Source: Gammaproteobacteria bacterium (GTDB taxonomy: Bacteria > Pseudomonadota > Gammaproteobacteria > Arenicellales > Poriferihabitantaceae). From it: a DNA stretch of 37,696 nucleotides. The notes beneath the pieces were generated by a model. It saw only the letters and a list, made by a program, of their open reading frames with translations. It did not search any database and was not told the origin of the DNA. Positions 16,333 through 33,549 of this stretch are shown here, piece after piece (positions within the stretch are counted from its first letter, which is position 1; every line of letters begins with the position of its first letter). The translations under genes and the position numbers were made by a program. The stretch lies in contig JALCBG010000010.1 in assembly GCA_028066695.1 (NCBI GenBank), forward strand, positions 21,441 to 59,136, written 5' to 3'.

Positions 16333-17198
16333 CACCGCTCCTCCCCGCGCATCATCAGCGTGTAAAAAATCCAGCACAGCAGCAGGATCATGATGAAGTA
16401 GATCAGCGACATGGCCGCGGCCGGGCCGAGGTCAAACTGGCCGAGCGCGATCTTGACCAGGTCAATGGATAGGAAAGTCGTGGCGTTGCCGGGCCCGCCG
16501 CCGGTCAGCACGAAAGGCTCGGTGTAGATCATGAAACTGTCCATAAAGCGCAGCAGCACCGCGATGGTCAGCACGCGCTTGAGTTTGGGCAGTTGAATGT
16601 GGCGGAACACCTGCCAGTTGCCGGCGCCGTCAATTTTCGCCGCCTGCATGTAGGCGTCCGGAATCGCGCACAGCCCGGCGTAGCACAGCAGCACCACCAG
16701 CGAGGTCCAGTGCCAGACATCCATCAGGATCACGGTGAACCACGCCGCGCCCGGCTGGCGCGTGAAGTTGTATTCAATGCCGAGCGCGTTGATGGCGCGC
16801 CCGAGCAGGCCGATTTCGGGCAGCGCAAAAATGTTCCACATCGCGCCGACCACATTCCACGGAATCAAAAGCGGCAGCGCCATCAGCACCAGGCACAGCG
16901 ACACGCCGATGCCGCGGCGCGGCATGCTGAGCGCGATTGCAATGCCGAGCGGAATTTCTATCGCCAGCACCGTCGCGGTGAAAATCAACTGCCGCAGCAG
17001 CGAGGCGTGAAAGCGCTCGGACTGCAGGATTTGCAAATACCACTTCGTGCCCTCCCAGAAAAACACATTCTCGCCGAAGGTTTCCTGAAAGGAATAATTG
17101 ACCACGGTCATCAGCGGAATGACCGCGTTGAACGCGACCAGCGCGACCACCGGCAGCACCAGCCACCACGCCTTTTGGTTTGCGCTGCGCCGGATCAT
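16332..17198 (-). CDS. glpP: Glycerol ABC transporter permease GlpP
   Basis: 288 residues of the MalF-like permease family. The first helix (WWLVLPVVALVAFNAVIPLMTVV) is followed by a periplasmic stretch with YSFQETFGENVFFWEGTKWY, then five more hydrophobic segments. The EAA loop reads YMQAAKIDGAGNWQVF. The PFVLTGGGPGNATTFLSI segment is typical of sugar and polyol permeases. It overlaps glpT by 4 nt (17195-17198) and glpQ by one base, so translation is coupled. It partners GlpQ. Confidence 0.9.
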
Positions 17199-18280: not shown

Positions 18281-19343
18281 TCGCCGCCACCCGCTCGCCG
18301 CCGGAATCAAACAAAAAACATTTTTGCGGGTCCAGATAGAGTTGCGCGCGCTCGCCCGGCGAAATCTTGTGCACGCCGTGCAGTTGGCACACCCAGTGGT
18401 GGCCGTGCGCGCTGAAATGCAGAATGCTTTCCGAGCCGCTGATTTCGCTGATGTCTATGCGCCCGTCCAGCCGGATATGCGCGTCCGCCTCGCGCAGCGA
18501 GAGTTGGTGCGAGCGAAAGCCGAGCAGGTAATTGCCGTCGGCCAGTTCGCGGTGCCGCGGCGGCGCCGGCCAGCGCAAACCGTCGGCGAGGAGAAAATCG
18601 CCGCCTTGTTTTTCCACGCCGGCGCAGTTCAGCGGCGGGTCGGAAAACGCCGCGGCCGCGGCGCGGTTCGCCGGATTTTTGAACACTTCAAAAGTTTCGC
18701 CATACTGGCAAACGCGCCCCTGATGCAGCGCCGCGGTGCGCCCGCCGAGCAGCAGCGCCTCGCCCGGCTCGGTGGTCGCATACACCACGGTGGTGCCGCG
18801 CCCGGCGAACATGCCGGGAAGTTCCTCGCGCAATTCCTCGCGCAACTTGTAATCCAAATTGGCCAGCGGCTCGTCCAGCAAAATTAACCCGGCGCGCTTG
18901 ACCAGCGCGCGCGCCAGCGCGATGCGCTGCTGCTGCCCGCCGGAAAGTTCGCTCGGGCGGCGCTGCAAAAACGGCGTCAGTTGCAGCAACTCGCAGACCT
19001 CGCGCACGCGCCGCTGAATTTCCGCGCGGCTTTGCCCGGCGATTTTTAACGGCGAGGCGATGTTGTCATACACGCGCCAATTCGGGTAGTTGATGAACTG
19101 CTGGTAGACCATCGCGATGTTGCGCCGCCGCACCGGCCAGTCGGTCGCGTTGTCATCGCCAAACCAAATTTCGCCGCCGCTCGGCCGCTCCAAGCCGGCC
19201 AGCAGGCGCAGCAGCGTGGTCTTGCCGGAAAGCGTCTCGCCCAGCAGGATGTTGAACGCGCCCGAGCGAAAGGTCAGCGAAGTCGGGTGAATCCAAGTCT
19301 CGCCGCCTTCGTCTTTGCGCAGGTCTTTCAGCCGGACTTCCAT
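18273..19343 (-). CDS. glpS: Glycerol ABC transporter ATPase GlpS (switch histidine replaced)
   Basis: 356 residues, MalK-like. Walker A GETLSGKT is at 35-42, the canonical signature LSGGQ at 133-137 and Walker B LILLDEP at 153-159, with Q-loop VYQQF. The switch (H-loop) histidine is replaced by Thr191 in VVYATTEPGEAL. The C-terminal regulatory domain includes LLGFRSHQLSLRE and HWVCQLHGVHKISPGE. Together with GlpT, one composite site keeps every catalytic motif (GlpT Walker and His plus GlpS signature), while the other lacks both. The ATG at 19343 lies 1 nt past the glpD stop; the frame continues upstream inside glpD, but homology starts here. Confidence 0.9.
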   Translation of the reverse strand: MEVRLKDLRKDEGGETWIHPTSLTFRSGAFNILLGETLSGKTTLLRLLAGLERPSGGEIWFGDDNATDWPVRRRNIAMVYQQFINYPNWRVYDNIASPLKIAGQSRAEIQRRVREVCELLQLTPFLQRRPSELSGGQQQRIALARALVKRAGLILLDEPLANLDYKLREELREELPGMFAGRGTTVVYATTEPGEALLLGGRTAALHQGRVCQYGETFEVFKNPANRAAAAAFSDPPLNCAGVEKQGGDFLLADGLRWPAPPRHRELADGNYLLGFRSHQLSLREADAHIRLDGRIDISEISGSESILHFSAHGHHWVCQLHGVHKISPGERAQLYLDPQKCFLFDSGGERVAANG

Positions 19344-19344
19344 G

Positions 19345-20886
19345 TCAATGCGCCGCCATGCGCGCGCCTTCGTTAACTTGCGCGCGCGATTCCAGATGCC
19401 GCTCCAATGCGGCGGTTTGTTCGCGCGAGAACACCAAGCCGAGTTTGCCGCGCCGCCACAAAATGTCTTCGGCGCAAGTCGCCCATTCGTGCTCGCGCAA
19501 ATAGTCAACTTCAATTTCATACAAGCCATGCCCGAAGTGCGCGCCCAAATCCTTGCGCACGCGCGCACCGCGCAACATGTCGGCCGCGTCTTCGCCATAC
19601 GCGGCCAGATAACGCGCGCGCGTTTCCGCCGGCAGATGTGCATGGCGCGATTCCAGCAAGGCGGCTGTATCTTCCAATGTATTTTTTTCGGGCGCTCCGG
19701 GCAAAAAAGCATCGGCGGTCCAAGCCGCGCCCATACCCGGAAAATACGCGGACAAACGCGCCAGTGCGGATTCGGCGAGTTTCCGAAAGGTGGTCAGTTT
19801 GCCGCCGTAAATGTTTAACAGCGGCGCCTCACCCTGCGGTGCGTCCAAACGAATCACATAGTCGCGCGTCACTTCGCGCAAACTTTCGGCGCCGTCGTCA
19901 ACCAGCGGACGCACGCCCCAAAAAGACGACACCACATCCTCGGGCGCGAGCGAGATGTGGAAATATCGCGCTACCGCCGCGCGCAAATACGCGGATTCAT
20001 CCGGCGTGATGCGCGCCGTGCGCGGATCGCCATGATGTTCGCGCTCAGTGGTGCCGATGATTGCCAGTCCATGCGCAAACGGCAGCACGAATATCACGCG
20101 GCGGTCGGCGTGCTGCAGTATGTATGCGTGCGCGCCGGCGAACCATTTCTTTACGACTATATGGCTGCCCTGCACGAGTTTGACCGAATGCGAATTCCGC
20201 GCGGAGGAGGGCAGCGATTCCGCGACCTTTTCCACCCAGGGACCGGCCGCATTGACCAGCGCTTTCGCGGTGCGCGTCTCCGACCCGCCCGATGCAAACT
20301 GCAGTTGCACCTCCCAATGCCCGTTCACACGCCGCGCGCCCGCGCACGATGCGCGCGTCAAAATTTCCGCGCCGCGCCGGCGCGCATCTTTCGCCACCGT
20401 CACCACCAGCCGCGCGTCATCCACCGCGCAATCGCTGTATTCAAACCCCTTCGCAAATTCGCCGCGCAACCGCGCGTCGCGGTGATGCGCGTCCAGCGCG
20501 ACCGCCTTGCTGCGCGCGAAACTCCCGCGCCCGGCGAGCAAGTCATACAGCAGCAGCCCGGCGCGCACCATCCACGCCGGGCGCGGCGCGTCCTTCGCCG
20601 AATGCGGCAGCACAAAACGCAACTGGCGAATTAAATGCGGCGCGCTGCGCATCAACACTTCACGCTCGCGCAACGCCTCGCGCACCAGCCGAAACTCGCG
20701 CTGTTCAAGATAGCGTAGCCCGCCGTGAATCAACTTGGAACTGGCCGACGAGGTGCTACCGCCCAAATCGCCGGCCTCGCACAGCAACACCTTCAGTCCG
20801 CGCCCGGCCGCGTCGCGCGCGATTCCGCAGCCGTTGATGCCGCCGCCGATGACGGCGAGATCAAATTCGGGCGCGGGCATGCGCAT
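19345..20886 (-). CDS. glpD: Aerobic-type glycerol-3-phosphate dehydrogenase
   Basis: About 513 residues. The FAD-binding motif is near the start (DLAVIGGGINGCGIARDAAG), followed by STSSASSKLIHGGLRYLEQ, then VNAAGPWVE, LVQGSHIVV and the conserved NIYGGKLTTFRKLAE, all typical of GlpD. The enzyme oxidises glycerol-3-phosphate to dihydroxyacetone phosphate and passes electrons to quinone at the inner membrane. Two adjacent ATGs (20886 and 20880) fit the family start. An ATG at 20949 would begin inside an intergenic hairpin and add 21 non-conserved residues, so it was rejected. It is placed between the binding protein and ATPase genes, so uptake and oxidation are co-expressed. Confidence 0.94.
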   Translation of the reverse strand: MRMPAPEFDLAVIGGGINGCGIARDAAGRGLKVLLCEAGDLGGSTSSASSKLIHGGLRYLEQREFRLVREALREREVLMRSAPHLIRQLRFVLPHSAKDAPRPAWMVRAGLLLYDLLAGRGSFARSKAVALDAHHRDARLRGEFAKGFEYSDCAVDDARLVVTVAKDARRRGAEILTRASCAGARRVNGHWEVQLQFASGGSETRTAKALVNAAGPWVEKVAESLPSSARNSHSVKLVQGSHIVVKKWFAGAHAYILQHADRRVIFVLPFAHGLAIIGTTEREHHGDPRTARITPDESAYLRAAVARYFHISLAPEDVVSSFWGVRPLVDDGAESLREVTRDYVIRLDAPQGEAPLLNIYGGKLTTFRKLAESALARLSAYFPGMGAAWTADAFLPGAPEKNTLEDTAALLESRHAHLPAETRARYLAAYGEDAADMLRGARVRKDLGAHFGHGLYEIEVDYLREHEWATCAEDILWRRGKLGLVFSREQTAALERHLESRAQVNEGARMAAH

Positions 20887-20931
20887 GCGCGGAACGCGCC
20901 GGGTTTCCGCCGCGCGTGGAACGCCGATTCC

Positions 20932-20959
20932 GCCCCCCTGCATCGGCATGCAAGGGGGC
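20932..20959 (-). other. Intergenic RNA hairpin between glpV and glpD
   Basis: A near-perfect inverted repeat, about five G-C pairs plus TGCAT/ATGCA with one bulge and a 4-nt loop, lies 14 nt after the glpV stop. No T-run follows on the minus strand, so it is not a full terminator. It probably stabilises the glpV message or reduces read-through into glpD. Confidence 0.55.
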
Positions 20960-20973
20960 GAAAGCGCGGCGTC

Positions 20974-22701
20974 CTAGTTCTCCCACCGCTTGACCAGTTG
21001 GTCGTAGTCCACCGTCTCCCCGCGCGGCTTTTCGTTTTTCAGTTTCGCCTTGGGCGAGCCGGAACGCTTGAGCCACTTGCCCGGGGATTCCGCCTTGTTC
21101 AGGCGCGGACCGCAGCCGCCGTAGGTGCCGGCGCGCTCATCGGCCGACTGCATGCGCGCCATGGTCGTGTCCATTTCCTCGGCGAGCCGGTCCATCGCCT
21201 GCTGCGGGGTGAACACGCCCGAATTGACATCGCCGATTTGCTGCCACCAAATCTGCGCGAGTTTCGGGTAGTCGGGGACATTGGTGCCGGTCGGCGTCCA
21301 GCGCACGCGGTCGGGCGAGCGGTAGAACTCCACCAGCCCGCCGAGTTTCGGCGCGCGTTCGGTGAACGACTCGTGGCGAATGTCGCTGTCGCGAATCGGC
21401 GTCAGGCCGACATGGGTTTTTTTCAGCGACACCGTCTTGGACACAGTGAACTGCGCATACAACCAGGCCGCCTGCCGGCGCTTCACCGGGGTGGACTTGA
21501 ACAGTGTCCACGAGCCGGCGTCCTGATAGCCGAGTTTCTGGCCCTCCTCCCAGTAAGGACCGTGCGGCGACGGCGCCATGCGCCACAGCGGAAAGCCCTT
21601 GTCGTCCACGGTGTTGTTGCCTTCGCTCTTCGGCGCGACCATGGCCGAGGTAAACGCGGTGTACCAGAAGATCTGCTGCGCGACATTGCCCTGGGAAAGC
21701 GCCGGCAGCGACTGGTAGAAGTCGTAACTGGCCGCGCCGGGCGGCGCGTATTTGCGCAGCCACTCGTCCCATTTGCGAATCGCATACACCGCCGCCGGCC
21801 CGTTCGCCGCGCCGCCGCGGCTGACCGAGGCCCCGACCGGGTTGCAGCCGTCCACGCGGATGCCCCATTCGTCCACCGGTTTGCCGTTGGGCAGGCCCTT
21901 GCTGCCGGCGCCGGCCATGGAGAGCCACGCGTCGGTCATGCGCCAGCCCAAGTCGGGCGCGCGCTTGCCGTAGTCCATGTGGCCGTAGACGCGCACGCCG
22001 TCGATCTCCTTGACATGCACCGAGAAAAACTCGGCGATGTCCTCATACGCCGACCAGTTGACCGGCACGCCGAGGTCGTAGCCGTAGCGTTTTTTGAAGT
22101 CGGCTTTCAGGTCTTCGCGCGAGAACCAGTCATAGCGAAACCAGTAGAGGTTGGCGAATTGCTGGTCGGGGAGTTGGTACAACTTCCCGTCGGCGCCGGT
22201 GGTGAACGACTTGCCCATGAAGTCGTCAATGTCCAGGTTCGGGTTGGTCACGCTTTTTCCCTCGCCGGCCATCCAGTCGCTGAGCGGCACCGCCAACTGC
22301 AGGCGCGAATGCGTGCCGATCAAATCGGAATCGTTGATGTAGGCGTCGTAGAGATTGCGCTTGGTCTGCATCTGCGTCTGCACCGCCTGCACGACTTCGC
22401 CTTCGCCGAGCAGTTGGTGGTTGACGCGGATGCCGGTGATTTCCTCAAACGCCTTGGTCAGGGTCTTGGACTCGTATTCATGCGTCGGGATGGTCTCGGA
22501 AAGCACATTGATTTCCATTCCGCGAAACGGCTTGGCGGCGTCAATGAACCACTGCATCTCGTCCTGCTGCTCGCGCTTGCTCAGCGTGGACGGCTGGAAC
22601 TCTTTGTTGATCCAGCGTTTCGCCGCGGCGATGTCGGCCTGCGCGGCCGGCGCGGAAAGCGCGAAAAGCGCCAGCGCCGTCATGGTCTGCTTCAGTTTCA
22701 T
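20974..22701 (-). CDS. glpV: Glycerol ABC transporter substrate-binding protein GlpV
   Basis: 575 residues, long for a solute-binding protein but in line with the GlpV type. A signal peptide MKLKQTMTALALFALSAPAAQA is cleaved near residue 22. The mature part has MEINVLSETIPTHEYES and ITGIRVNHQLLGEGEVVQAV, then PDQQFANLYWFRYDWF, and GVRVYGHMDYGKRAPDLGWRMTDAWL. It is the first gene of the minus-strand operon, before glpD and the ATPase and permease genes. The ATG at 22701 has a GGAG ribosome binding site and starts the signal peptide; the frame is open further upstream without homology. It captures the substrate in the periplasm; glycerol is inferred from glpD, glpK and glpU. Confidence 0.9.
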   Translation of the reverse strand: MKLKQTMTALALFALSAPAAQADIAAAKRWINKEFQPSTLSKREQQDEMQWFIDAAKPFRGMEINVLSETIPTHEYESKTLTKAFEEITGIRVNHQLLGEGEVVQAVQTQMQTKRNLYDAYINDSDLIGTHSRLQLAVPLSDWMAGEGKSVTNPNLDIDDFMGKSFTTGADGKLYQLPDQQFANLYWFRYDWFSREDLKADFKKRYGYDLGVPVNWSAYEDIAEFFSVHVKEIDGVRVYGHMDYGKRAPDLGWRMTDAWLSMAGAGSKGLPNGKPVDEWGIRVDGCNPVGASVSRGGAANGPAAVYAIRKWDEWLRKYAPPGAASYDFYQSLPALSQGNVAQQIFWYTAFTSAMVAPKSEGNNTVDDKGFPLWRMAPSPHGPYWEEGQKLGYQDAGSWTLFKSTPVKRRQAAWLYAQFTVSKTVSLKKTHVGLTPIRDSDIRHESFTERAPKLGGLVEFYRSPDRVRWTPTGTNVPDYPKLAQIWWQQIGDVNSGVFTPQQAMDRLAEEMDTTMARMQSADERAGTYGGCGPRLNKAESPGKWLKRSGSPKAKLKNEKPRGETVDYDQLVKRWEN

Positions 22702-22745
22702 TTCAATACTCCGGTTGGAAAGGGAAAAAACGAATGCCAAATTGT

Positions 22746-22754
22746 AGTGTAGCA
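22746..22754 (-). promoter_or_regulatory. Candidate extended -10 promoter of the glpV operon
   Basis: On the minus strand this reads TGCTACACT: TGn plus TACACT, about 45 nt before the glpV ATG. It is one base away from the GGTGCTATACT element seen twice elsewhere in the window. No -35 match is seen, which fits an activated or extended -10 promoter. Confidence 0.4.
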
Positions 22755-22793
22755 CCGCGGAAAAACGGAAAATGCCGGCGGAAAATGTCGCAT

Positions 22794-22821
22794 GCGGACG
22801 AGGTCCCTCTGACTCGTCCGC
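22794..22821. promoter_or_regulatory. Perfect inverted repeat, candidate operator shared by glpV and glpK
   Basis: GCGGACGAG and its exact reverse complement CTCGTCCGC flank a 10-nt spacer. Arm centres are 19 bp apart, about two helical turns, as for a dimeric regulator. It sits between the minus-strand -10 (22746-22751) and the plus-strand -10 (22847-22852). A GlpR-type repressor is possible, but no regulator gene is in the window. Confidence 0.5.
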
Positions 22822-22846
22822 TCCGCTCGCCATGTCCCGATTTGCA

Positions 22847-22852
22847 TATACT
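22847..22852 (+). promoter_or_regulatory. Candidate -10 box of glpK
   Basis: TATACT (in GCATATACTAC) lies 33 nt before the glpK ATG in the divergent glpV-glpK region. No -35 hexamer is recognisable. The ATG has no clear Shine-Dalgarno sequence upstream. Confidence 0.4.
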
Positions 22853-22885
22853 ACAACGAATTTCGCGCGCTTTTTGACAATTTCC

Positions 22886-24433
22886 ATGAAACCCCAAAAC
22901 CTCCTCTCCCTGGACCAAGGCACCACCTCTTCGCGCGCCATCGTGTTTGCGCGGGATGGGGCGGTGGTGGCGGTGGCGCAGCGGGAGTTTGCGCAGCATT
23001 ATCCGCATGAGGGGTGGGTGGAGCACGAGCCGGAGGAGATTTGGCGGACTACGCTGGAATCGGCGCGCGAGGCGGTGGAGAAAGCGGGCGGCGCCGGGTG
23101 CATCGCCGCGGTCGGCATCGCCAATCAGCGCGAGACCACGGTGGTGTGGGAGCGGGAAAGCGGCAGGGCGGTGCATAACGCGATTGTCTGGCAGGACCGG
23201 CGCACCGCGGAAAAATGCGCGGAATTGGCGAAAAAGGACGGCGAATTGCCCGAAAAAATCGCCGCGAAAACCGGGTTGTTGTTGGACGCGTATTTTTCCG
23301 CGCCGAAAATCGCCTGGATTTTGGATGCAGTGGACGGCGCGCGCCGCCGCGCCGAGGCGGGCGAGTTGGCGTTCGGCACGATTGACGCGTTTTTGCTGTG
23401 GCGGCTGTGCGGGCGGCACCTCACCGACGCCAGCAACGCCGGGCGCACTTTGCTGTTTGACATCCACAAACAACGCTGGGACGAGGAATTGCTGGGCGCG
23501 TTCGGCGTGCCGGCCGCGGTTTTGCCGGAAGTGCGCGATTGCGCCGATGATTTCGGCGCGACCGCGCGCGAGTGGTTTGGGCGGGAAATTCCGGTATGCG
23601 GCGTCGCCGGCGACCAGCAGGCCGCGCTTTTCGGGCAGGCCTGCCATGCGCCGGGAATGGGGAAATGCACCTTCGGCAGCGGCGCGTTTTTGATGGCGAC
23701 CACGGCAAAACCGGCGAAATCGCGCCACCGCCTGCTGACCACGCTCGCCTCGCGCCTTCACGGGCGCGCCGCCTACGCGCTGGAAGGCTCGGTGTTCAAC
23801 GCCGGCACCGCGCTGCAGTGGCTGCGGCAAATCGGTGTTTTCGTGGAGAACAAGGAAATCAAGGAGTTATTGGAAAAATCGCTTAAAAAAGATGAGGAAA
23901 ACGCTGCCGGAAAAAACCCGTCGGAAACTGTCGGAACGGAGAGTATTTGCATGGTCCCAGCCTTCACCGGCCTAGGCGCGCCGCACTGGCGGCCGCATGC
24001 GCGCGCGGCGATTTTTGGGATTACCCGCGGCGCCGGGCGCGCCGATTTGGTGCGCGCGGCGGTGGAGGCGGTCGCGTTTCAGACGCGCGATTTGCTGGAA
24101 GCGATGCGCGCCGACGGCGCCGAAATCACGGCGTTGCGCGTGGACGGCGGCATGGCGGTCAATGATTACCTGCTGCAATTTCTCGCCGACATCAGCGGCG
24201 TCACCGTGGAGCGCCCGCGCGTGACCGAAACCACCGCGCTCGGCGCGGCGTTATTGGCCGGGCTGCAGTGCGGACTTTACAAATCGCCGGAGGAAGCCGG
24301 CGCAGTGTGGCGCAAGGAAAGGGGATTTTCTCCGAATCCCGCCAAAAAAGTCCGCGAAAAAGTCGCGCGGAAACTGGCGGTTTGGGAGGACGCGCTGGCG
24401 CGGGTGAAAGCGAAAAAAGGCGCGCCCGATTGA
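22886..24433 (+). CDS. glpK: Glycerol kinase
   Basis: 515 residues of the FGGY kinase family (enteric GlpK is about 500). The ATP-binding opening is LLSLDQGTTSSRAIVF. Further family blocks are GWVEHEPEEIW, IANQRETTVVW, IVWQDRRTAEKC, VAGDQQAALFGQ, GTGK-like KCTFGSGAFLM, PAFTGLGAPHW and LRVDGGMAVNDYLLQF. It phosphorylates glycerol to sn-glycerol-3-phosphate, trapping imported glycerol for GlpD. The ATG at 22886 gives the family N-terminus; upstream in-frame ATGs would add unrelated residues. A Lys/Glu-rich insert sits near residue 330. It is divergent from the transporter operon, and its 3' end overlaps the terminator of the neighbouring outer-membrane protein operon. Confidence 0.97.
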   Translation: MKPQNLLSLDQGTTSSRAIVFARDGAVVAVAQREFAQHYPHEGWVEHEPEEIWRTTLESAREAVEKAGGAGCIAAVGIANQRETTVVWERESGRAVHNAIVWQDRRTAEKCAELAKKDGELPEKIAAKTGLLLDAYFSAPKIAWILDAVDGARRRAEAGELAFGTIDAFLLWRLCGRHLTDASNAGRTLLFDIHKQRWDEELLGAFGVPAAVLPEVRDCADDFGATAREWFGREIPVCGVAGDQQAALFGQACHAPGMGKCTFGSGAFLMATTAKPAKSRHRLLTTLASRLHGRAAYALEGSVFNAGTALQWLRQIGVFVENKEIKELLEKSLKKDEENAAGKNPSETVGTESICMVPAFTGLGAPHWRPHARAAIFGITRGAGRADLVRAAVEAVAFQTRDLLEAMRADGAEITALRVDGGMAVNDYLLQFLADISGVTVERPRVTETTALGAALLAGLQCGLYKSPEEAGAVWRKERGFSPNPAKKVREKVARKLAVWEDALARVKAKKGAPD

Positions 24434-24448
24434 AAAACCGGGCGCGCC
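24413..24448 (-). terminator. Intrinsic terminator of the outer-membrane protein operon
   Basis: Read on the minus strand, a perfect 10-bp GC-rich stem (GGCGCGCCCG with CGGGCGCGCC, 10-nt loop) is followed by TTTTTT. It lies 14 nt after the stop of the second beta-barrel gene. The far arm lies inside the glpK coding end, so both convergent genes share this DNA. On the plus strand only a short T-run (TTTT) follows, after a 5-nt gap, so it may act weakly for glpK as well. Confidence 0.85.
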
Positions 24449-24461
24449 CGCGACTTTTCTC

Positions 24462-26303
24462 CTAAAAGTCGTAGATCACGCTGAGGCGCGCGCCGAAGGA
24501 GATTTCGTCCTCCAGTTCGTAGCGGATGCTCTGGCTTTCCGCGGCGAGTTCGTCGCGCAGGTTGCTGACCGCTTCCAGACCGATGGTCCAGCGGAACTTC
24601 TCGTTGATCAGCGAGGAGCGGTAGACGGCGAGGCCGAAGTAGGTGCCGACAAAACCGCCGAGAACGCCGATTTCGCGGTTTTTGTCCGGATCCAGATAGC
24701 GCGCCACATTGAAGGCCGGCGCGAAAGTGGCGCCGGCGCCTTCATCCGCGCCTTCGGCCGCGTCCTGCAGTTTGCGCAGACTTTCGTCCTCCCAGGTCTC
24801 GTTCAGATACAGCATGGTGAGATTGAGGCGCCACTTGTCGCCGTCGGTGTCGGCGCCGATGGCGGTGATGGTGCGGGTGGCGTCCATCGACAAACTGCCG
24901 GCGTTCGGCAGGCCGGCCTTGTTGAACCCGGTGCGCTGGTTGATCGCGCGGTAGTAGTCAAGGCGCGCCTGGGCGAGGGTGTCGTCGGGATTGCCTTCCG
25001 CCTCGCCCTGCGCATTGACCAAAATCGCCGAGGAAAACGCCTGCAGGTCCACGGTGGTGTCCGAGTAGAGCATCTCAAACTTCCACACCCAGTCGCCGCG
25101 GGGAATGGCAAGTTCAATGCCGTAGTTCTCGGTCGGGAACAGATTAGCGTTGCTGAAGACGTTGTAGATTTCCGCCTTGGCGTCCTGCACGTGTTTGGGA
25201 TCATCTGAGGGAAGCACCCTCACATTGTTGGTGGTTCGCACGCAGGAACCGGCAGGAGTGCCGGCAGGGGTGGGGTTAGCACCAACGCCAGCGACTCGCC
25301 CATCCACACTGGTCAACTCACGCTTCCTTCCTTCTCCGCGAACGGTCGTCCCGCCCGCAACCGCGGCATCAATGTCGCCGGCGCATGCCAGCCGCGCGTT
25401 CTTGGACTCAAACCCGAGCGAGTCATTGGTGTCGTGGTAGGTGAAGCCGAGCGTGCCCCAGTTGTTGTAGAACACGACCCGCAACGCGCCATGCTCGTGG
25501 TCGGTCAGGTCGTTGTCCGGCGCAAGAACTTCTTCTTGCGTGAGCCGCATACTCGCGACAGTTGCAGGATCGACATTATAAATGTCATCAGTCGCCCCTT
25601 CAGGCTGGCTGCCGCCGGACAGCACGCTTTCAAACAGCGGATCCAGTTGCACCGAGTTGAAGTAGTAGCCGCTGATTTCCATGCGCGGAGTCGGGAACCA
25701 GGTCAGCGCGACCTGGTCCTGCGCGAACAGCGTGGCGATTTTGTCGGTCACCGCGTCTGCGCTTTGCAGCGACACCGGCAGCGACAGCGAAATCGGCGAC
25801 AGCAGTTCAAACTGCCCCCAGTTGACGCGGCGGCGGCCGGCGGTGACTTCCAAATTTCGCAGCAGGTCAAACTGCACGAACGCGTCGTTGACGATGGAAG
25901 TGTCGTCGCGCACCGTCAGGTCGTCGGTTTCCGGCTCGGGATTGCCGTCTTCGTCCGGCATCGGATTGCGTTTCGCCGCGTCGGTCAGAACGCGCGACAC
26001 GGTCAGATCGCTGCTGCTGGCGAGGCCGTTGAAATAAACGCGGCCGCGCTCGCGGGCGAACGGCATGTCAAAGCCGAGTTGCACCGAGCCGTAAGTGTGC
26101 TGAACGCCGGTGCCGGCCGAGCCGGTGCCGGAGAGGGTTCCAAAGAAATCGCCTTTGGATTTCGCCGAGTAGGCGCCGTCGTCTTCCTCCTCGATGATTT
26201 GCGCATGGGCAGCGCCGGCCGCGGCAAAAATCGCGGCGGCGGCGAACATGCGCAGCCAGGGAAAGAACTTGAAAACAGCGGGGGTGGTAGTGGAGTGTTT
26301 CAT
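24462..26303 (-). CDS. Outer-membrane beta-barrel protein, second paralogue
   Basis: 613 residues. A Sec signal peptide ends at AAHA (residue 34), followed by an acidic IIEEEDDGAYS stretch. The rest alternates polar and hydrophobic residues as in beta-barrels, ending in the outer-membrane terminal motif LSVIYDF. Conserved with the neighbouring paralogue are KGDFFGTLSG, NDAFVQFDL, GRRRVNWGQFELLSPI, FAQDQVALTWFP, the D-D/H-TDHEHG-like segment, the FGIELAIPRGDW-type strand and ARYLDPDKNREIG. A loop at about 25190-25400 contains two cysteines and unusual codons. I infer an RND-associated outer-membrane channel or receptor, perhaps DUF1302-like; the family assignment is not certain. A GGAGG ribosome binding site precedes the ATG, and a terminator follows the stop. 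Confidence 0.85.
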   Translation of the reverse strand: MKHSTTTPAVFKFFPWLRMFAAAAIFAAAGAAHAQIIEEEDDGAYSAKSKGDFFGTLSGTGSAGTGVQHTYGSVQLGFDMPFARERGRVYFNGLASSSDLTVSRVLTDAAKRNPMPDEDGNPEPETDDLTVRDDTSIVNDAFVQFDLLRNLEVTAGRRRVNWGQFELLSPISLSLPVSLQSADAVTDKIATLFAQDQVALTWFPTPRMEISGYYFNSVQLDPLFESVLSGGSQPEGATDDIYNVDPATVASMRLTQEEVLAPDNDLTDHEHGALRVVFYNNWGTLGFTYHDTNDSLGFESKNARLACAGDIDAAVAGGTTVRGEGRKRELTSVDGRVAGVGANPTPAGTPAGSCVRTTNNVRVLPSDDPKHVQDAKAEIYNVFSNANLFPTENYGIELAIPRGDWVWKFEMLYSDTTVDLQAFSSAILVNAQGEAEGNPDDTLAQARLDYYRAINQRTGFNKAGLPNAGSLSMDATRTITAIGADTDGDKWRLNLTMLYLNETWEDESLRKLQDAAEGADEGAGATFAPAFNVARYLDPDKNREIGVLGGFVGTYFGLAVYRSSLINEKFRWTIGLEAVSNLRDELAAESQSIRYELEDEISFGARLSVIYDF

Positions 26304-26372
26304 GAGTTTTGCCTCCGGATCGTAAGATCAGTAGGGTTGGTTGGGGGGGAAATGCAAGGCTCCGTCGGATTG

Positions 26373-27998
26373 TCAGAAATTATAAATGAAACTGAAGCGG
26401 CCGCCGCTGGAGATGTCGTCGGCGAGTTCGTAGCGGTTGCCGTCGGCGTTGGTCTCGGCGGCGAGGTCGTCGCGCAGGTTGCTGATCGCCTCGGCGCTCA
26501 GCGTCCAGCGGAAATTGTCGCCGATGGTGGAGGTGTAATAAAAAGACGCGCCGAAATAGGTGCCGAGAAAACCGGCGAGAAAGCCGGTTTCGCGCTGTTT
26601 GTCGCCGTCCAGATAACGGGCGATGTTGATGGTCGGGGCGACCTGGGATTCGCGGTCGCTGGCGCTGGTGCCGAACGCGGCGTCTCCGAGTTTCAGCAAC
26701 TCTTCGTCCTTGGTGTCAAACGACTGGTCAATGCCCAGAATCATCAGATTGAGGCGCCAGTTGTCGGTCTCCACATCGGCGCCGAAAGCGATCAGAGTGC
26801 GCTCCACCGGGACATAGAGTTTGCCGACATCGGCGGCGCCGCCGCTGCGCATGTCAGCGTTGAACACCGCGTTGTAGAACGCTTGTCCGGACGGCGTGAA
26901 CGGCTCCGGAGGAGTGCCGATCATGCGAGTGATAAATTCTCCACCGACGACACCGCTGATGTCGGTGAAACTTTCCTGCTGCAGGTATTCAAACTTCCAG
27001 GTCCAGTTGCCGGCCGGAATGGCGAGTTCAAAACCGAAACTCTCCGCTTCGGGCAGGTCGGTGTTGTTGATGACGTTGTAGACATCGGTGGCCCCATTAA
27101 CCAACTCCGCCTTCGCGAGATCTTCGCCGAATGACAGCGTGTCCACGCCGTCCAGATAGGTAAAGCCGAGAATGCCCCAGCCGGGATAGAACAGAATGCG
27201 TCCGCCGGTCTGGTCGTGATCGGTGAAATCGTTCGGCTCTTTTGTAGGGCTCGGCAGACTCGCTCCCGTCGGACTGTAAAGTTCATCGCCGTTTTCCTGC
27301 TGGAGTTCCAGAATGCGCTCAATCAACGGGTCCAAGTGAACGCCGTAGAACTGATACGCCTGAATTTCCATGCGCTCGCCGGGGAACCAGGCGAGGCCGA
27401 CTTGGTCCTGCGCGACCAGCGAACTGATTTTGTCAATGACCGGCTCGGCGCTTTGCGGCGTCAGCGGCAGCGCGAGATTGATCGGCGAGAACAGGTCAAA
27501 CTGCCCCCACGAGAGGCGGCGGCGGCCGAGGGTGAATTCCATCGCGCCCGGCAAATCAAACTGCAAAAACGCGTCGCGCACATCAAAAGCGCTTTCGGCG
27601 ATGGTGATGGTCTGCTCGTCTTCAAGACCGCGAAGTTCCATGCACTTGGCACTGCTGGGAGTTATGCACGCCTGATTCCGTTCCTGCTTGGATGAATCCT
27701 TCAAAACCAGATCCAAATCCAAGTCGGTGTTGCTGCCCAGTCCGCTGAAATAAAAGCGTCCGCTCTCGCCGGCAAACGCGGTGTCGTAGCCGATTTGCAG
27801 CGCCTGATAGAGCGCGGTGGTGCTGCTGCCGGGCGCGCTCACTCCGCTGAGGCGGCCGAAAAAGTCGCCGCGCGCCGGCGCGGTGGAATAAACCTCGTCT
27901 TCCTCAATCACCTGCGCATGCGCGGGCGCGAGCAAAAGCGCGGCCGACAGGGCGGCGCACAGGCGGAAAAGGGTTTTGGTGCTTGCCGGAATGTTCAT
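26373..27998 (-). CDS. Outer-membrane beta-barrel protein, first paralogue
   Basis: 541 residues with a signal peptide cleaved after APAHA (residue 28), then QVIEEDEVYS. Shared blocks with the next gene include RGDFFGRLSG, RDAFLQFDL, GRRRLSWGQFDLFSPI, VAQDQVGLAWFP, FGFELAIPAGNW, ARYLDGDKQRETG and AEAISNLRDDLAAE. The C-terminus FSFIYNF is a BAM-type terminal strand with final Phe. The ATG overlaps the RND transporter stop by 4 nt and has a CGGAGAA ribosome binding site, so translation is coupled to the transporter. A loop near residue 110-125 has two cysteines (QACITPSSAKC). The role is inferred from context: outer-membrane partner of the RND and LolA-like proteins. The two barrels probably arose by tandem duplication. 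Confidence 0.86.
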   Translation of the reverse strand: MNIPASTKTLFRLCAALSAALLLAPAHAQVIEEDEVYSTAPARGDFFGRLSGVSAPGSSTTALYQALQIGYDTAFAGESGRFYFSGLGSNTDLDLDLVLKDSSKQERNQACITPSSAKCMELRGLEDEQTITIAESAFDVRDAFLQFDLPGAMEFTLGRRRLSWGQFDLFSPINLALPLTPQSAEPVIDKISSLVAQDQVGLAWFPGERMEIQAYQFYGVHLDPLIERILELQQENGDELYSPTGASLPSPTKEPNDFTDHDQTGGRILFYPGWGILGFTYLDGVDTLSFGEDLAKAELVNGATDVYNVINNTDLPEAESFGFELAIPAGNWTWKFEYLQQESFTDISGVVGGEFITRMIGTPPEPFTPSGQAFYNAVFNADMRSGGAADVGKLYVPVERTLIAFGADVETDNWRLNLMILGIDQSFDTKDEELLKLGDAAFGTSASDRESQVAPTINIARYLDGDKQRETGFLAGFLGTYFGASFYYTSTIGDNFRWTLSAEAISNLRDDLAAETNADGNRYELADDISSGGRFSFIYNF

Positions 27999-30286
27999 TG
28001 GTTCTCCGAGTTGTAAGGGGAGTTTTCGGGGCTGTCAAGATGGGCCGGCGCCGGCGCCTGCCGCCCGGATACCATAGCAAGAAACGCCGGCAAAAACAAC
28101 AGCGCGGAGGCGAGCGCGCAGGCGATGCCGAACGAGGCAAAAAGCGCGAAGCGGCGCAACACCACCAAATCGGAAAACGCGACCACGCCCAGTCCGCAGC
28201 AAAACAGGACGGTGGTGACGGCGATCGGGCGGGCGGTGCGCCCGAGGGCGCGGCGGCGCGAATCGGCGGCGCCGTTGCCGCGGCGGTAATGGTGCAAAAA
28301 GTGGATGGTGTCGTCCACCGACAAACTGAGCGTGACGCCGGCGATGAGAATCGCGGCGAAATCGTAGGGATAGCGCAGCCACGCCACCAGTCCGGCGGTG
28401 GCCGCAAGCGGCAGCATATTCGCCAAAAGTCCGGCGAAACCGGCGCGCCAGCCGAATTGCGCGAAGAGGAGGGTGGCGATAATCAGAAAAGTCAGCGCGA
28501 GACTGCTCGCCTGGGTGTTCAGCACATGCTCGCCGAGGTTGTGAATGAACACGCCGAAACCGGTGATGGTGGTGGTCAGGGCGGTGGAGGAATTGTCGGG
28601 CGCGGCCGCGACATGCGCCTCGGTCTCGGCGATGGTGCGCTCCAATTCGGGCGAGAGGAGATTCGCGGTCTGCAAACTGAGGCGCGCGCCGGACTCGTTG
28701 AAATCCAAATACGGCGCGAGAACGCCGCGCTCGGTCTCGCTGCGCGACAGCGACAAAAACAGCAATTCCTGCGACAACTGCCCGTCCGATTCCGGCAGAC
28801 CGGAGCCGCCGAATGCGGTGTCGGCCATGCCGACCGGGAGGAGATAACTGTCCACATAATGGACCGTGTCAATCTCGCGCAGGCGCGCCGCCAGCGACTC
28901 CACATCGCGCATCGCCGCGTGTTCGGCGAATTGCTCGGGCGCGCCGCGGCGAATCACTTCCACGCGGTTGGAGCCGCCCAAATCGGCGTCCACCAAATCA
29001 AACGCCTGCCGCACCTCGCTCTGCGGCGAGAAAAACACCGCGAGAAAGTTGGTCTCGGTGCGAAGCAGCGACAACCCGCCGCCGAGCAGCGCGGCGAAGC
29101 ACAGCCCGGCGAAAACGATGCGGCGCGGGCGCGTTCCGGCGGCGCGCTCAAACGCGCCGGCGAGTTTTTCCCAGGGCAGCCGCGACGGCGGTTTTCGCTC
29201 CATGCCGGGGAAAATCCACAGCGAACCCCAGACCGCGCCGGTGATCAGCGGGTAGGCGTAGAGAATGGTCAGCGCCGAGGCGAAGCCGAAATGCTGCAGC
29301 GGGGTCAATTCGCTGACCGAAAACGCGCCAAAACCGGCGGCGCTGGTCAATGTGGCACCGAGGCAGGGCAGCCAGGTCTGGGCGATGGTCTTTTTTATGC
29401 GGGTCTGCGGGTCGTGCAAATGGGGCGCTTCCAGCGCGTCCCATGTGGCGAGAATGTGCAAGCCGTCGGCGACCGCAATCACCGAGACCATGACCGGCAG
29501 CACCAGCAAAACCGCGTTCATCGGCCAGCCGAACGCGGCCATCAGGCCGAGGCAGGAGGAAACCGCGGCGACCGCGGCCGCGAAAATCACCGCGGCGCGC
29601 CGCCAATTGCCGCAGGCGAGCCGCAGAAAAATCACCAGCATGATTCCGGCGAGCGCGAGCAGATACGGCAGTTGTTCGCGGGTGGCGCGGTTTAGTTCAT
29701 CTTTCAGCGCCGATTCGCCGGCGAAATGTATGTTTTCCCAGCCTTTTTTGTCGGCCTCGGCGCGCGCCGCGGCGATGACCGCGGCCACCGATATGCCGCG
29801 CGCGACCGCGTCAATGCGCTCAATCGCGACCCGCAACAGCACTTTGCGCTGGTCGGCGGAGAGGAGCCGGCCGGCATAGGGGGAGGCGAGGAATTTTTCG
29901 CGGAAAGCGTCGGCGTCGGCGAGAAACCCTTTTTCCATCGCTTCGTCAAAACTGCCGATTTCCAGCGTCTCGCCGGTGTCAATGATGGTGGTCGCGCTGA
30001 GTGGCGACAGCACCGATACGGTTTCCGGCAGCGCGTCAAGAACTCCTTCTAACTCCCTGATTTTTTGCGTTTGTTCCCCGCGAAAAAAGTCCTCCTGCAA
30101 TTCCACCACCAGCAGGAATGCCTCGTCCGGCTCAAACTCGGCGCGGAAAGTGTCCAGCGCGACCTTGCGCGGATTGTCCGGCGGCAGCCAGGTGTCGTTG
30201 TCAAAGCCGAGGCGGTGCAGTTGCGAAGTGGCCGCGCCCGCCAGCGCGAGCCACAGCAACGCCACGCAGGCGCGCGCAACGCGCAT
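27995..30286 (-). CDS. RND superfamily transporter, MMPL-type
   Basis: 763 residues with two repeats. An N-terminal helix (4-20) is followed by a periplasmic domain (about 25-205), then five to six helices carrying VADGLHILATW (Asp274). A second helix precedes a second periplasmic domain (about 410-590), and a final helix set carries SLSVDDTIHFLHHYRR (Asp658, Asp659). Such acidic residues mid-membrane power proton-coupled transport in MMPL and HpnN-like proteins. No membrane fusion protein or TolC-type gene is nearby, which argues for lipid or hydrophobic cargo trafficking rather than drug efflux. It starts 2 nt after the LolA-like gene stop and overlaps the first beta-barrel gene by 4 nt. 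The substrate is unknown. Confidence 0.92.
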   Translation of the reverse strand: MRVARACVALLWLALAGAATSQLHRLGFDNDTWLPPDNPRKVALDTFRAEFEPDEAFLLVVELQEDFFRGEQTQKIRELEGVLDALPETVSVLSPLSATTIIDTGETLEIGSFDEAMEKGFLADADAFREKFLASPYAGRLLSADQRKVLLRVAIERIDAVARGISVAAVIAAARAEADKKGWENIHFAGESALKDELNRATREQLPYLLALAGIMLVIFLRLACGNWRRAAVIFAAAVAAVSSCLGLMAAFGWPMNAVLLVLPVMVSVIAVADGLHILATWDALEAPHLHDPQTRIKKTIAQTWLPCLGATLTSAAGFGAFSVSELTPLQHFGFASALTILYAYPLITGAVWGSLWIFPGMERKPPSRLPWEKLAGAFERAAGTRPRRIVFAGLCFAALLGGGLSLLRTETNFLAVFFSPQSEVRQAFDLVDADLGGSNRVEVIRRGAPEQFAEHAAMRDVESLAARLREIDTVHYVDSYLLPVGMADTAFGGSGLPESDGQLSQELLFLSLSRSETERGVLAPYLDFNESGARLSLQTANLLSPELERTIAETEAHVAAAPDNSSTALTTTITGFGVFIHNLGEHVLNTQASSLALTFLIIATLLFAQFGWRAGFAGLLANMLPLAATAGLVAWLRYPYDFAAILIAGVTLSLSVDDTIHFLHHYRRGNGAADSRRRALGRTARPIAVTTVLFCCGLGVVAFSDLVVLRRFALFASFGIACALASALLFLPAFLAMVSGRQAPAPAHLDSPENSPYNSENQ

Positions 30287-30288
30287 AT

Positions 30289-31089
30289 TTAGCGCCGCAA
30301 TCCCTTGATGCCGACCCGGTCCTCCTCAATGACGCGGTCCAAGTCAATGTCGCTCTTGGTCATCTTGGTCGAGCCGCCGCTTTGGTGGTTGGTCATCTCC
30401 GCCTCAATGACCATGTACATGCCCTTGACCTTGCGGATGCGGTTGTTGGTCAGGGTTTTGAGTTTTTTGCCGCCGCGGTCGTAGAAGGTGATGCTCGCCG
30501 GCACCAGCACTTTGCGCAGCATTTCCACCTCCAGTTTGGAGTAGAGGTCGCTGCGGTCACGCGGAATGCTTTCAATGTGGATTTTCTTGCTGTCCTGGCG
30601 GACGATGCGGTGCTTGTCGCGCGACACCTGGCGGCCGGCGATGTCGCCATTGGTGAAGTCGGAGCCGACGAAACTCTTGTTCTGGTCGTCGGCGTTCAGT
30701 TGCTTGACCGAGCGCAGCGCCGGCAGGTAGATCCACTGGTCGGCGATGTCGGCGCCGTCCAGCGTCTCGCTCAGAAGGCCGGTGTTTTTGACGCTGGGCG
30801 GGCGGTCAAACTTCATCAGACTCTTGGTGCGCTCCGGGAAGATTTTGTGCCACATGCGAAACTCGCGCACGCGGGTTTTTCCCTCGCGGTTTTTGATCAG
30901 CAGTTCCACCGAGGCGCGCTGGTTTTTGTGCTGGCGCGACTGCTCGTAGGAGGCCTGCATGACCGCCTGGCCGCTGGAGTAATTCTGCGCGGCCACATTG
31001 GCGAGGGGCAGGGCGGTGAGGAGAGCGGCGGCCGGCAAAATTGCGGCAATGCCGCGAATCAAGGTTTTGAGAGTTTTCATAGTTTTCAT
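30289..31089 (-). CDS. Periplasmic LolA-like outer-membrane lipoprotein-sorting family protein
   Basis: 266 residues from the ATG at 31089, with a signal peptide ending near NVAAQ. Characteristic blocks are DRPPSVKNTGLLSE, ADQWIYLPALRSVKQL and SFVGSDFTNGDI. These fit the LolA_like family (PF17131) often found beside MMPL transporters. The fold is a half-barrel with a hydrophobic cleft that carries acyl chains, so a periplasmic shuttle between the RND pump and outer membrane is inferred. The start is ambiguous: a TTG at 31101 and ATGs at 31089 and 31080 are in frame, none with a good ribosome binding site; repeated AAAACT-ATG units surround them. It is the first gene of the operon. Confidence 0.88.
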   Translation of the reverse strand: MKTMKTLKTLIRGIAAILPAAALLTALPLANVAAQNYSSGQAVMQASYEQSRQHKNQRASVELLIKNREGKTRVREFRMWHKIFPERTKSLMKFDRPPSVKNTGLLSETLDGADIADQWIYLPALRSVKQLNADDQNKSFVGSDFTNGDIAGRQVSRDKHRIVRQDSKKIHIESIPRDRSDLYSKLEVEMLRKVLVPASITFYDRGGKKLKTLTNNRIRKVKGMYMVIEAEMTNHQSGGSTKMTKSDIDLDRVIEEDRVGIKGLRR

Positions 31090-31144
31090 GGCAGTTTTCA
31101 ATGGAAGTTTTCAGGGGGGACTTTACTGCTTCGCATCGCAGCGG

Positions 31145-31173
31145 AATATAGCAAATCGCCGCGGAATGTGCAA
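31145..31173 (-). promoter_or_regulatory. Promoter of the LolA-like/RND/beta-barrel operon
   Basis: On the minus strand: TTGCAC (-35, 31173-31168), a 17-nt spacer ending in TGC, then TATATT (-10, 31150-31145). Both boxes and the extended -10 fit sigma-70. The predicted start is about 50 nt before the ATG at 31089. Confidence 0.6.
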
Positions 31174-31209
31174 AAGGGGCGCGTAAAAAATCCGTAAAAA
31201 AATTGTAAA

Positions 31210-31678: not shown

Positions 31679-32503
31679 TTAAAAACGCGCCAGTCCGCCC
31701 GCGTTCATTTTGACGAACAGCAAATCTCCCTGCCGCAACAATTCGCCGCGCACTTGCACCGACTCGGCCGCGAGCGGCGCCAGCGATTTCGCCGCAGAAG
31801 TTCCGTCGGTGTTCAGCAACAGGTAACCGAACTTTTCGCGTTGCGCGTTTTGCACCACCAGCATCGGCGGAATGCCGCCCAACAAACAGAGTTCCGCGCA
31901 TGCTTTGTGCACGGCGCCGGCGCCGGGTTTCATTACGCCGAGAAAACATTTGGAGTCGGCGATTTCGCCGCGAAACACGACGCCGCCGAGGGATTCAAAA
32001 CCGAGTTCGGCGCGCAACGCGTTTTCGTCGGGGATTTCCGCGAGGGAAATTGTGCCGGAGTTTTCCCCGGAGTTTTCATGTCCGTTTTCATTTTCAGTTA
32101 CCGAGGGGATTTCCAGCATCCGCCAGTTTCCGCGGAGAATTTCCGCGCCGCGAATCGCGACCGCGCGCCCGTCAAAACGCGCCGGCAAATTCGCCGCGTG
32201 TTTTCCCTGGCCGACCAACAGCACCGACTCAATCCGGCCCGGGTTTTGCGGGTGAAAGCGGTGCAGCGCCGGGTAGGGGCGCAAGGTCAAAACCCCGCGC
32301 AAAACCTCCGGCGCCGCCGGCCGCCAAGTCGCCTCGCCGGCCGATTGTTGCTGCATCGCCCAGAAATGTCCGGCCGCGGCCGCCGCGGCCAGCAGAAGCA
32401 GCGCGAGCGGCCAATAAAAACGCGCCAGCGCGGCCGGCATCGGCAAATAACCGACGAAGAAGGGTTTATCAGGTTTTTCGGGGGACTTTTTGTCAGCCAT
32501 CAT
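31679..32503 (-). CDS. Membrane-anchored protein of unknown function with Cys/His motif
   Basis: 274 residues from the first of two tandem ATGs (32503, 32500). A cytoplasmic N-terminus contains KPFFVGYLPMP. One membrane helix follows at about 27-46, then an extracytoplasmic part with an Asn/Glu/Gly-rich linker (NENGHENSGENSG). A C-terminal domain has C-x12-H-x2-C-x3-C: Cys186, His199, Cys202, Cys206 in KCFLGVMKPG...HKACAELC, followed by LGGIPP. I do not recognise a characterised family. The motif suggests a metal or heme site, or a disulfide. The start overlaps the Rieske fusion gene stop (ATGATG), so the two are coupled and probably form one complex. Confidence 0.8.
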   Translation of the reverse strand: MMADKKSPEKPDKPFFVGYLPMPAALARFYWPLALLLLAAAAAAGHFWAMQQQSAGEATWRPAAPEVLRGVLTLRPYPALHRFHPQNPGRIESVLLVGQGKHAANLPARFDGRAVAIRGAEILRGNWRMLEIPSVTENENGHENSGENSGTISLAEIPDENALRAELGFESLGGVVFRGEIADSKCFLGVMKPGAGAVHKACAELCLLGGIPPMLVVQNAQREKFGYLLLNTDGTSAAKSLAPLAAESVQVRGELLRQGDLLFVKMNAGGLARF

Positions 32504-33549
32504 TTTTCGCCGGGAATTTCCACCACCGGGCGCGGCGAGCCGGCCGGCAGCGGCGCCGGGTCCAGCAAGACGCGCGCGCCCTCCACTTTGACGCGGTAGG
32601 TCGGGATTTTTTCGCCGAAAGGCGGCGGCGAGCAGCCGTCTTCGGGGCGGTATTGGTAGCCGTGCCACGGGCAGGTGATCAGCCCGTCCATCACGCGCCC
32701 CTCGCCGAGCGGCCCGTTTTGGTGCTGGCAGACATTGGAAACCGCGGCGATTTTGGTCGCGCCGGCATTGTCGCGGTAGCGAAACACCGCGACCCGCTCG
32801 GCGCCGCGCAACGCGAAAATTTGCGCGCGGTTAATCGGGATGTCATGCCAGTCGCAAAGGTCCAACCAAGAAGTTTCTGCGGAACTTTTTGCGGCATGAA
32901 AATCCGCGCCGGATTTAAAAAGCGCCGCCAAAATGTGCAATCCGCCGACAACGCAAACGCTCGCCATCGCCATCCACGGCGCGAAACCGGTGTCGTTTTG
33001 CTGCAACGCGCCGAACAAAATGTGCGCGATGATCAGCGCGTAAGCCGGATACACCAGCATGTGAATCGCCTTCCACAAAGGTCCGCCGAGCGTCGCGTTC
33101 CAGTAATCGTGGCTGGTCGCGGCCATCAAAAACAAAATCGCCAATGCAATCGCGCCGAGCAATTGAAACGGAAAATCTCCGCCGACAATTGCAATTGACG
33201 CGAGCGGATTGATCACGCCGAAGCCGTGATACCAATAAATCGCCAGCGCGGCGTGCAGCAGCGCGACCACGAACATGGACACGCCGAGGTGGCGACGGTT
33301 GTAGAGGAGCGGCAAAAAGCGCGGGGAAAGGCGGGCGAGGGGGCCGATGCACAAAATCACATTCAACATCAAAAATGCGCAGGTGGAAAGCGCGCGCATC
33401 AGCACGATCGGCGCGGACAACGCGTCGGCGCCGGCGAGGTCGCTCGCGCCAATGAACAGCGCGAGGTAGAGCGCGACGCAGGCCCAGATGCACAGGTCGT
33501 AAAGGAGTTTGCGGCGGTTCCACTGAACCGCGACGAAACCGTGGCTCAT
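32500..33549 (-). CDS. Ferric-reductase-like transmembrane domain fused to a Rieske [2Fe-2S] domain
   Basis: 349 residues. Residues 15-212 hold about six hydrophobic helices. RRHLGVSMFVVALLHA (His87, His99) and IHMLVYPAYALIIAH (His163, His176) match the paired heme-ligating histidines of ferric reductase/MsrQ-type domains. From about 228 a Rieske domain follows, with cluster ligands Cys274-x-His276 and Cys293-x2-His296 in CQHQNGPLGEG and CPWHGYQY. No FAD or NAD(P)H domain is present, so electrons must come from another partner or from quinol. It lies 4 nt after a 61-codon membrane-protein gene and overlaps the next gene by 4 nt. The substrate is unknown. Confidence 0.92.
   Translation of the reverse strand: MSHGFVAVQWNRRKLLYDLCIWACVALYLALFIGASDLAGADALSAPIVLMRALSTCAFLMLNVILCIGPLARLSPRFLPLLYNRRHLGVSMFVVALLHAALAIYWYHGFGVINPLASIAIVGGDFPFQLLGAIALAILFLMAATSHDYWNATLGGPLWKAIHMLVYPAYALIIAHILFGALQQNDTGFAPWMAMASVCVVGGLHILAALFKSGADFHAAKSSAETSWLDLCDWHDIPINRAQIFALRGAERVAVFRYRDNAGATKIAAVSNVCQHQNGPLGEGRVMDGLITCPWHGYQYRPEDGCSPPPFGEKIPTYRVKVEGARVLLDPAPLPAGSPRPVVEIPGEK

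Follow-up and report, generated by a model that had tools for sequence, protein, structure and literature searches.

A gammaproteobacterial operon for an RND pump, a LolA-like carrier and two paralogous outer-membrane barrels as a candidate exporter of hydrophobic cargo

Introduction

An RND pump that lacks a membrane fusion protein raises the question of how hydrophobic molecules get across the periplasm. It arises for a four-gene operon in a 37,696-nt stretch of a gammaproteobacterial contig; this whole stretch is referred to here as the window. The original prediction, made from the DNA letters, presented this operon as a self-contained candidate system for envelope lipid transport. Here we ask whether its parts belong together, which known systems they resemble, and what cargo they might move and in which direction.

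Results

An ORF check of the window showed four genes on the minus strand in the order carrier, pump, barrel 1 and barrel 2, confirming the four genes of the predicted operon. The first gene encodes a LolA-like periplasmic carrier (31101-30289; 270 aa with the TTG start as called, an in-frame ATG at 31089 or 31080 being the likelier start) and is separated by 2 nt (30288-30287) from that of an HAE3-like RND/MMPL pump (30286-27995; 763 aa). The pump gene overlaps by 4 nt (27998-27995) the gene for outer-membrane barrel 1, a divergent DUF1302-like protein (27998-26373; 541 aa), and a 69-nt spacer with a GGAGG leads to the gene for its paralogue, barrel 2 (26303-24462; 613 aa). The predicted gap and overlap were exact, and no further gene lies between those for the carrier and barrel 2. 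A convincing intrinsic terminator follows on the same strand (24418-24449), with a 14-bp stem and a U-tract, a fold z-score of -4.5 and none of 200 shuffles equalling it. Since the opposite strand also folds (z = -4.0) and the element overlaps the 3′ end of the convergent glpK (stop at 24433), this terminator is possibly bidirectional and may be common to the operon and glpK. The predicted promoter fared less well: the minus-strand hexamers TGCACA/TTTGCA and TATATT at 31145-31174 amount to two overlapping 9/12 matches, within the chance level of 1.1 ± 1.1 expected in shuffles. Because the gene next upstream (31671-31210) shares the strand of the operon and lies 108 nt from it, self-containment is plausible but unproven. 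A Pfam scan identified the operon neighbors as FMN_red and glpK and, as predicted, found no membrane fusion protein or TolC among the operon and neighboring genes. The source genome comprises 2.08 Mb in 89 contigs and is 92% complete.

The carrier matched a single Pfam family, PF17131 of the LolA superfamily, at 138 bits (curated cut-off 30; E = 3.1e-40), in line with the original prediction. Its N-terminus looks Sec-like on inspection and the protein contains no cysteine, so that a soluble protein of the periplasm is most likely, rather than a lipoprotein. A profile search returned 9TP6, 3BK5 and 4Z48 as its closest solved structures, the first of which is LolA3 of P. gingivalis, a protein that has a hydrophobic groove, shows very weak LolB binding and is without the hallmark arginine of LolA and leucine of LolB (PMC13103446). 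Comparison of the carrier profile with DUF1329 (PF07044) gave a probability of 1.1%.

The second gene product belongs, as predicted, to the MMPL-type RND proteins (PF03176, E = 9e-24). RND proteins are expected to have 12 transmembrane segments; a hydropathy scan of the pump detected 10 clear ones, and weaker segments may escape such a scan. Its best NCBIfam model was HAE3 TIGR00921 (E = 1e-31), with 110 bits, below the subfamily cut-off of 352, and comparison with Ame-type RNDs by hhalign gave 99.6%. A family-profile search placed MmpL4/5 and HpnN as the closest solved relatives; assignment to HpnN itself was rejected, given a score far under the cut-off of model TIGR03480 (26.6 bits against 751.85) and a separate clade. 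A putative proton relay is formed by Asp274 in TM4 and Asp658 in TM10. The latter is kept in all 24 aligned RNDs; the former is kept across the window clade but not in Ame-type pumps.

The two barrels are paralogous (45 and 42% identity over two segments, E = 2e-63) and are sisters in the tree (support 99/99). Barrel 1 carries a WGQFDLFSP motif and a C-terminal Phe, and barrel 2 has a long inserted loop that holds its only two cysteines (307 and 354). The outer-membrane barrels of the original prediction were borne out by an AF2 model of barrel 1 and by profile links to DUF1302. The model, built from 18 sequences in place of a poor one from seven (pLDDT 65), is a beta-barrel with a pLDDT of 79 and a pTM of 0.79, loosely resembling AlgE and general porins (Foldseek TM-scores 0.35-0.45); a PDB sequence search with the barrel profiles returned nothing usable. 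Neither window barrel alone matched any Pfam family at E ≤ 0.001, PF06980 included, and PF03349 (FadL/TodX) had no match in the barrels or in the whole source genome. A homolog from genome G038 that is 42-45% identical to the window barrels did score above the PF06980 cut-off (32-33 bits against 23.2). In profile comparisons DUF1302 matched the window-type barrels directly at 75% (E = 2e-5); an indirect link ran at 98% to barrels of about 400 aa and from these at 94% to DUF1302. By these profile links, the window barrels are probably divergent DUF1302 (PF06980) relatives, and would hence belong not to an unrelated porin family but to a superfamily already known beside HAE3 RNDs and LolA-superfamily proteins. 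Separate duplications were seen in the tree for the window lineage (99/99), an alphaproteobacterial MAG (98/95) and Arcobacteraceae (100/99), which makes three apparently independent duplications of the barrel; with 12 sequences and several long branches, the deeper branching of this tree is uncertain.

Barrels of the window type are rare, being present in two of 100 close relatives besides the source genome and in four of 369 genomes of the class, one of them marginal. A motif-limited scan of a named genome collection gave eight loci, partly in the same genomes, and a phylum-wide barrel-profile search returned, beyond the source genome, only short marginal motif matches. At nine such barrel loci outside the window (L055-L061, L054 and L050), a LolA-like gene adjoins the barrel in eight and an RND gene in seven. 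The order is LolA-barrel-RND in G105 and G146, in Arcobacteraceae locus L058 (barrel found by tblastn) and in L061, from a MAG labelled Actinomycetota. It is LolA-barrel-RND-barrel in Arcobacteraceae locus L059 and in alphaproteobacterial locus L056, where further barrels follow. In G038 it is LolA-RND-APH kinase-barrel, and G102 has LolA-barrel and no linked RND. Linkage in G002 is not assessable, since the contig with its LolA and RND genes ends within the pump gene and a barrel is on another contig. The RND proteins of these sets form one clade (100/100), as do their LolA-like proteins (95/96), with members in other Gammaproteobacteria, the alphaproteobacterial MAG and Arcobacteraceae, and the grouping of the parts spans Pseudomonadota and Campylobacterota. 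The neighborhood survey therefore upheld the expected co-occurrence, with carrier, pump and barrel together across classes and phyla.

Several of these loci have features of their own. In L056 (2944-11706, LolA-like and RND genes included), a row of further barrels runs on behind the LolA-like, barrel and RND genes to the contig end, and one of them (9439-11197) is split into two ORFs, possibly by a frameshift or an assembly error. The barrel of L061 (8546-11251) has 901 aa and weakly matches S-layer homology; an outer-membrane system being at odds with an Actinomycetota label, this MAG may be misnamed or mixed. The extra gene of G038 (L039, 3257-4240) encodes a kinase of the aminoglycoside-phosphotransferase family (PF01636); a 329-aa ORF upstream in the window, considered as its counterpart, is unrelated. 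In G102 (L049, 2591-10983, the same as L057), the carrier and barrel genes lie upstream of same-strand genes for VanY, HMG-CoA reductase, a PlsC-like acyltransferase, an FAD-linked oxidase and a short-chain dehydrogenase, possibly a lipid-synthesis context.

PF17131 itself is common in the window's order (71 of 100 relatives), with an MMPL domain within 6 kb at 41 or more of 99 loci. Forty such PF17131 loci were read gene by gene, in 34 of which the carrier was among the genes called. A barrel lay no more than three genes away on the same strand in 28 of these 34, an RND in 17 and both in 16; carrier and barrel are thus the most closely linked pair, whereas the gene for the pump may be located elsewhere. 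PF17131-MMPL-barrel operons of this order, for example L075, L076, L089, L122 and L129, have the same three components as the window operon, homologous by profile (hhalign 98-100%), but with smaller barrels of about 400 aa, usually one, and with pump and carrier outside the window clade. At other loci (L086, 2703-7932; L090, 387-4730; L093, 4021-8065), PF17131 carriers adjoin LolCDE-like ABC/FtsX genes, assigned from sequence appearance and gene order, and L086 and L090 also have a DUF1302-like barrel by profile. This suggests that carrier and barrel may be served by different inner-membrane engines, RND or ABC. Ame-like cassettes (L094-L099) are common in this order as well, consisting of DUF1302, a presumed DUF1329 protein of about 455 aa, a presumed YCF48-like protein of about 320 aa and an RND. 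In P. gingivalis and P. intermedia, PF17131 and MMPL operons are under strong iron regulation (PMC10434189).

Discussion

An RND with a barrel and a protein of the LolA superfamily, the architecture that the original prediction implied to be novel, has been on record since 2018 in the form of AmeABCD of Castellaniella defragrans. AmeABCD brings together an HAE3 RND, a DUF1302 barrel and a LolA-superfamily protein, and on its deletion cells tolerate monoterpenes less well and accumulate more Nile Red (PMC6394551). The window operon has similar components, an HAE3-type RND, a LolA-superfamily protein and a barrel that is probably related to DUF1302, and likewise no classical membrane fusion protein or TolC, so that we infer a shared Ame-type architecture and logic. 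It differs from AmeABCD in having a short PF17131 carrier where Ame has the larger DUF1329, in having two barrels and no YCF48-like protein, and in a pump that falls in a separate, well-supported clade. We did not file it as an Ame member because DUF1329 and YCF48 are missing and its pump and carrier have clades of their own; we see it as a divergent form, with more than one barrel, of a kind of transporter known from bacteria that deal with oils and other hydrophobic compounds. Betaproteobacteria regulate operons of Ame-type composition together with aromatic metabolism (PMC6449761), and expression of such operons is on record for an anaerobic benzene degrader (PMC13101534).

Other systems share parts of this design. 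PP_0765, PP_0766, PP_2018 and PP_2019 of P. putida are required for Tween 20 metabolism, and AF2 predicts barrel-carrier and carrier-YCF48-RND complexes for them (PMC10866462); they resemble the window operon, with its probably DUF1302-related barrels, in that a DUF1302 barrel, a LolA-superfamily protein and an RND work jointly on a hydrophobic substrate, but are spread over two loci and have a fourth periplasmic protein, a DUF1329 carrier and one barrel. In Thalassolituus oleivorans, TOL_3187 (MMPL and LolA-like) is up 42-fold on the alkane n-C28 and the porin TOL_3188 appears only on that substrate (PMC6304351). The resemblance here is one of description, an MMPL and LolA-like domain with an adjoining porin-like protein that has no known domains; there, a single protein holds both the LolA-like domain and the pump, and there is one barrel. 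HpnN (hopanoids) and BstABC (sterols) are likewise MMPL-type RND systems tied to lipid movement towards the outer membrane, and Bst has periplasmic and outer-membrane-associated partners, but BstB (PF12974, the phosphonate-binding family) and BstC are neither LolA-like nor barrels (PMC10942540). AupA and AupB of Marinobacter are interacting outer- and inner-membrane proteins for alkanes; homology was rejected, as AupA is FadL-like, AupB is not described as an RND and LolA is unmentioned (PMC5989066). From HAE1 tripartite efflux pumps the operon and its neighboring genes differ in having no membrane fusion protein or TolC-type channel.

We favor, at a probability of roughly 60%, the reading that the operon encodes an exporter driven by the proton-motive force and independent of a membrane fusion protein and TolC, which would pass a lipid-like or apolar cargo through the carrier to the barrels. 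The RND would use the proton-motive force to export the cargo and pass it to the LolA-like protein; this would ferry it across the periplasm in a hydrophobic half-barrel, replacing a membrane fusion protein, and the DUF1302-like barrels would take it over and discharge it into the outer membrane or across it. This proposal starts from the observed parts, their families and folds, their conservation and their evolutionary grouping, and adds to them a presumed physical hand-over, hydrophobic cargo and outward direction. In favor of export are the persistence of carrier, pump and barrel together in distant genomes (LolA-like 8/9, RND 7/9), the matching pump and carrier clades, the barrel at 28 of 34 same-order PF17131 loci with an RND too at 16, the aspartates of TM10 in every RND aligned and of TM4 throughout the window clade, the hydrophobic groove in the closest solved carrier (PMC13103446), and the precedents of the AmeABCD deletion phenotype (PMC6394551) and the P. 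putida AF2 complexes (PMC10866462). Against it count the missing DUF1329 carrier and YCF48-like protein of Ame-type systems and the RND that stands apart from the carrier and barrel pair in half of the loci read. A hydrophobic cargo is a sensible expectation; a lipid as cargo, like the outward direction, is more conjectural, the studied relatives being tied to monoterpenes, alkanes and Tween 20, and the lack of any lipid-synthesis gene immediately around the operon counts against the export reading.

The P. putida and Thalassolituus data can also be read as uptake, the main rival, in which the barrels would admit a hydrophobic nutrient (alkane, fatty acid or sterol), the LolA-like protein would carry it inward and the RND would energize the transfer or clear excess from the inner membrane. 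The need for the P. putida proteins in Tween 20 metabolism (PMC10866462) and the n-C28 response of TOL_3187 and TOL_3188 (PMC6304351) fit this, but characterized RND pumps drive cargo outward and the Ame deletion increases dye accumulation (PMC6394551), and we hold uptake to be rather unlikely. Of 143 genomes of the class, 94 have a FadL-type importer, but none of six genomes with the system does, which would also suit uptake; we set this aside because 36 of 60 close relatives lack FadL as well, so that this lack does not mark out genomes with the system. That the carrier belongs to the LolA superfamily, that PF17131 stands beside LolCDE-like FtsX/ABC genes in relatives (L082, L084-L086, L091 and L093) and that a comparable proposal exists for Borrelia BBJ28 (PMC13078400) would suit handling of lipoproteins in the manner of Lol, a role made improbable by the very weak LolB binding and missing hallmarks of P. 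gingivalis LolA3, the closest solved relative (PMC13103446). The operon also differs from the Lol pathway in its engine, an RND in place of the LolCDE ABC transporter, and in that no LolB-like gene was found in it. We know of no case in which an RND extracts lipoproteins, which weighs further against this role. Ordinary porins lying by chance beside a carrier and pump, with no common mechanism, would agree with the modest Foldseek scores to generic porin-class barrels; yet the barrel stays with the carrier even where the RND is elsewhere, the set occurs in both Pseudomonadota and Campylobacterota, and DUF1302 barrels go with Ame-type systems, and we regard mere coincidence as very improbable.

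In our preferred reading, the two barrels of the window operon, a lineage-specific duplication, would provide alternative exits or form a hetero-oligomer. The apparently independent duplications suggest the barrel as the site where specificity may be tuned. A more far-reaching and doubtful version holds that the operon belongs to a distinct clade of RND exporters free of membrane fusion proteins, in which a LolA-type shuttle would deliver lipid straight to repeatedly duplicated barrels acting as heteromeric or alternative exits; if true, this clade would be an RND-powered route of lipid to the surface separate from Lpt, Mla and Lol. The compact set, a soluble LolA-type carrier with its own barrels, makes the hand-over testable with few proteins.

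Two further features of the window were observed. A glycerol-use cluster (17195-24433) that runs convergent with the transport operon contains glycerol kinase, an FAD enzyme resembling glycerol-3-phosphate oxidase, and an ABC importer together with a solute-binding protein. In a single ORF (32500-33549), a membrane domain similar to ferric reductases is followed at the C-terminus by a Rieske [2Fe-2S] domain.
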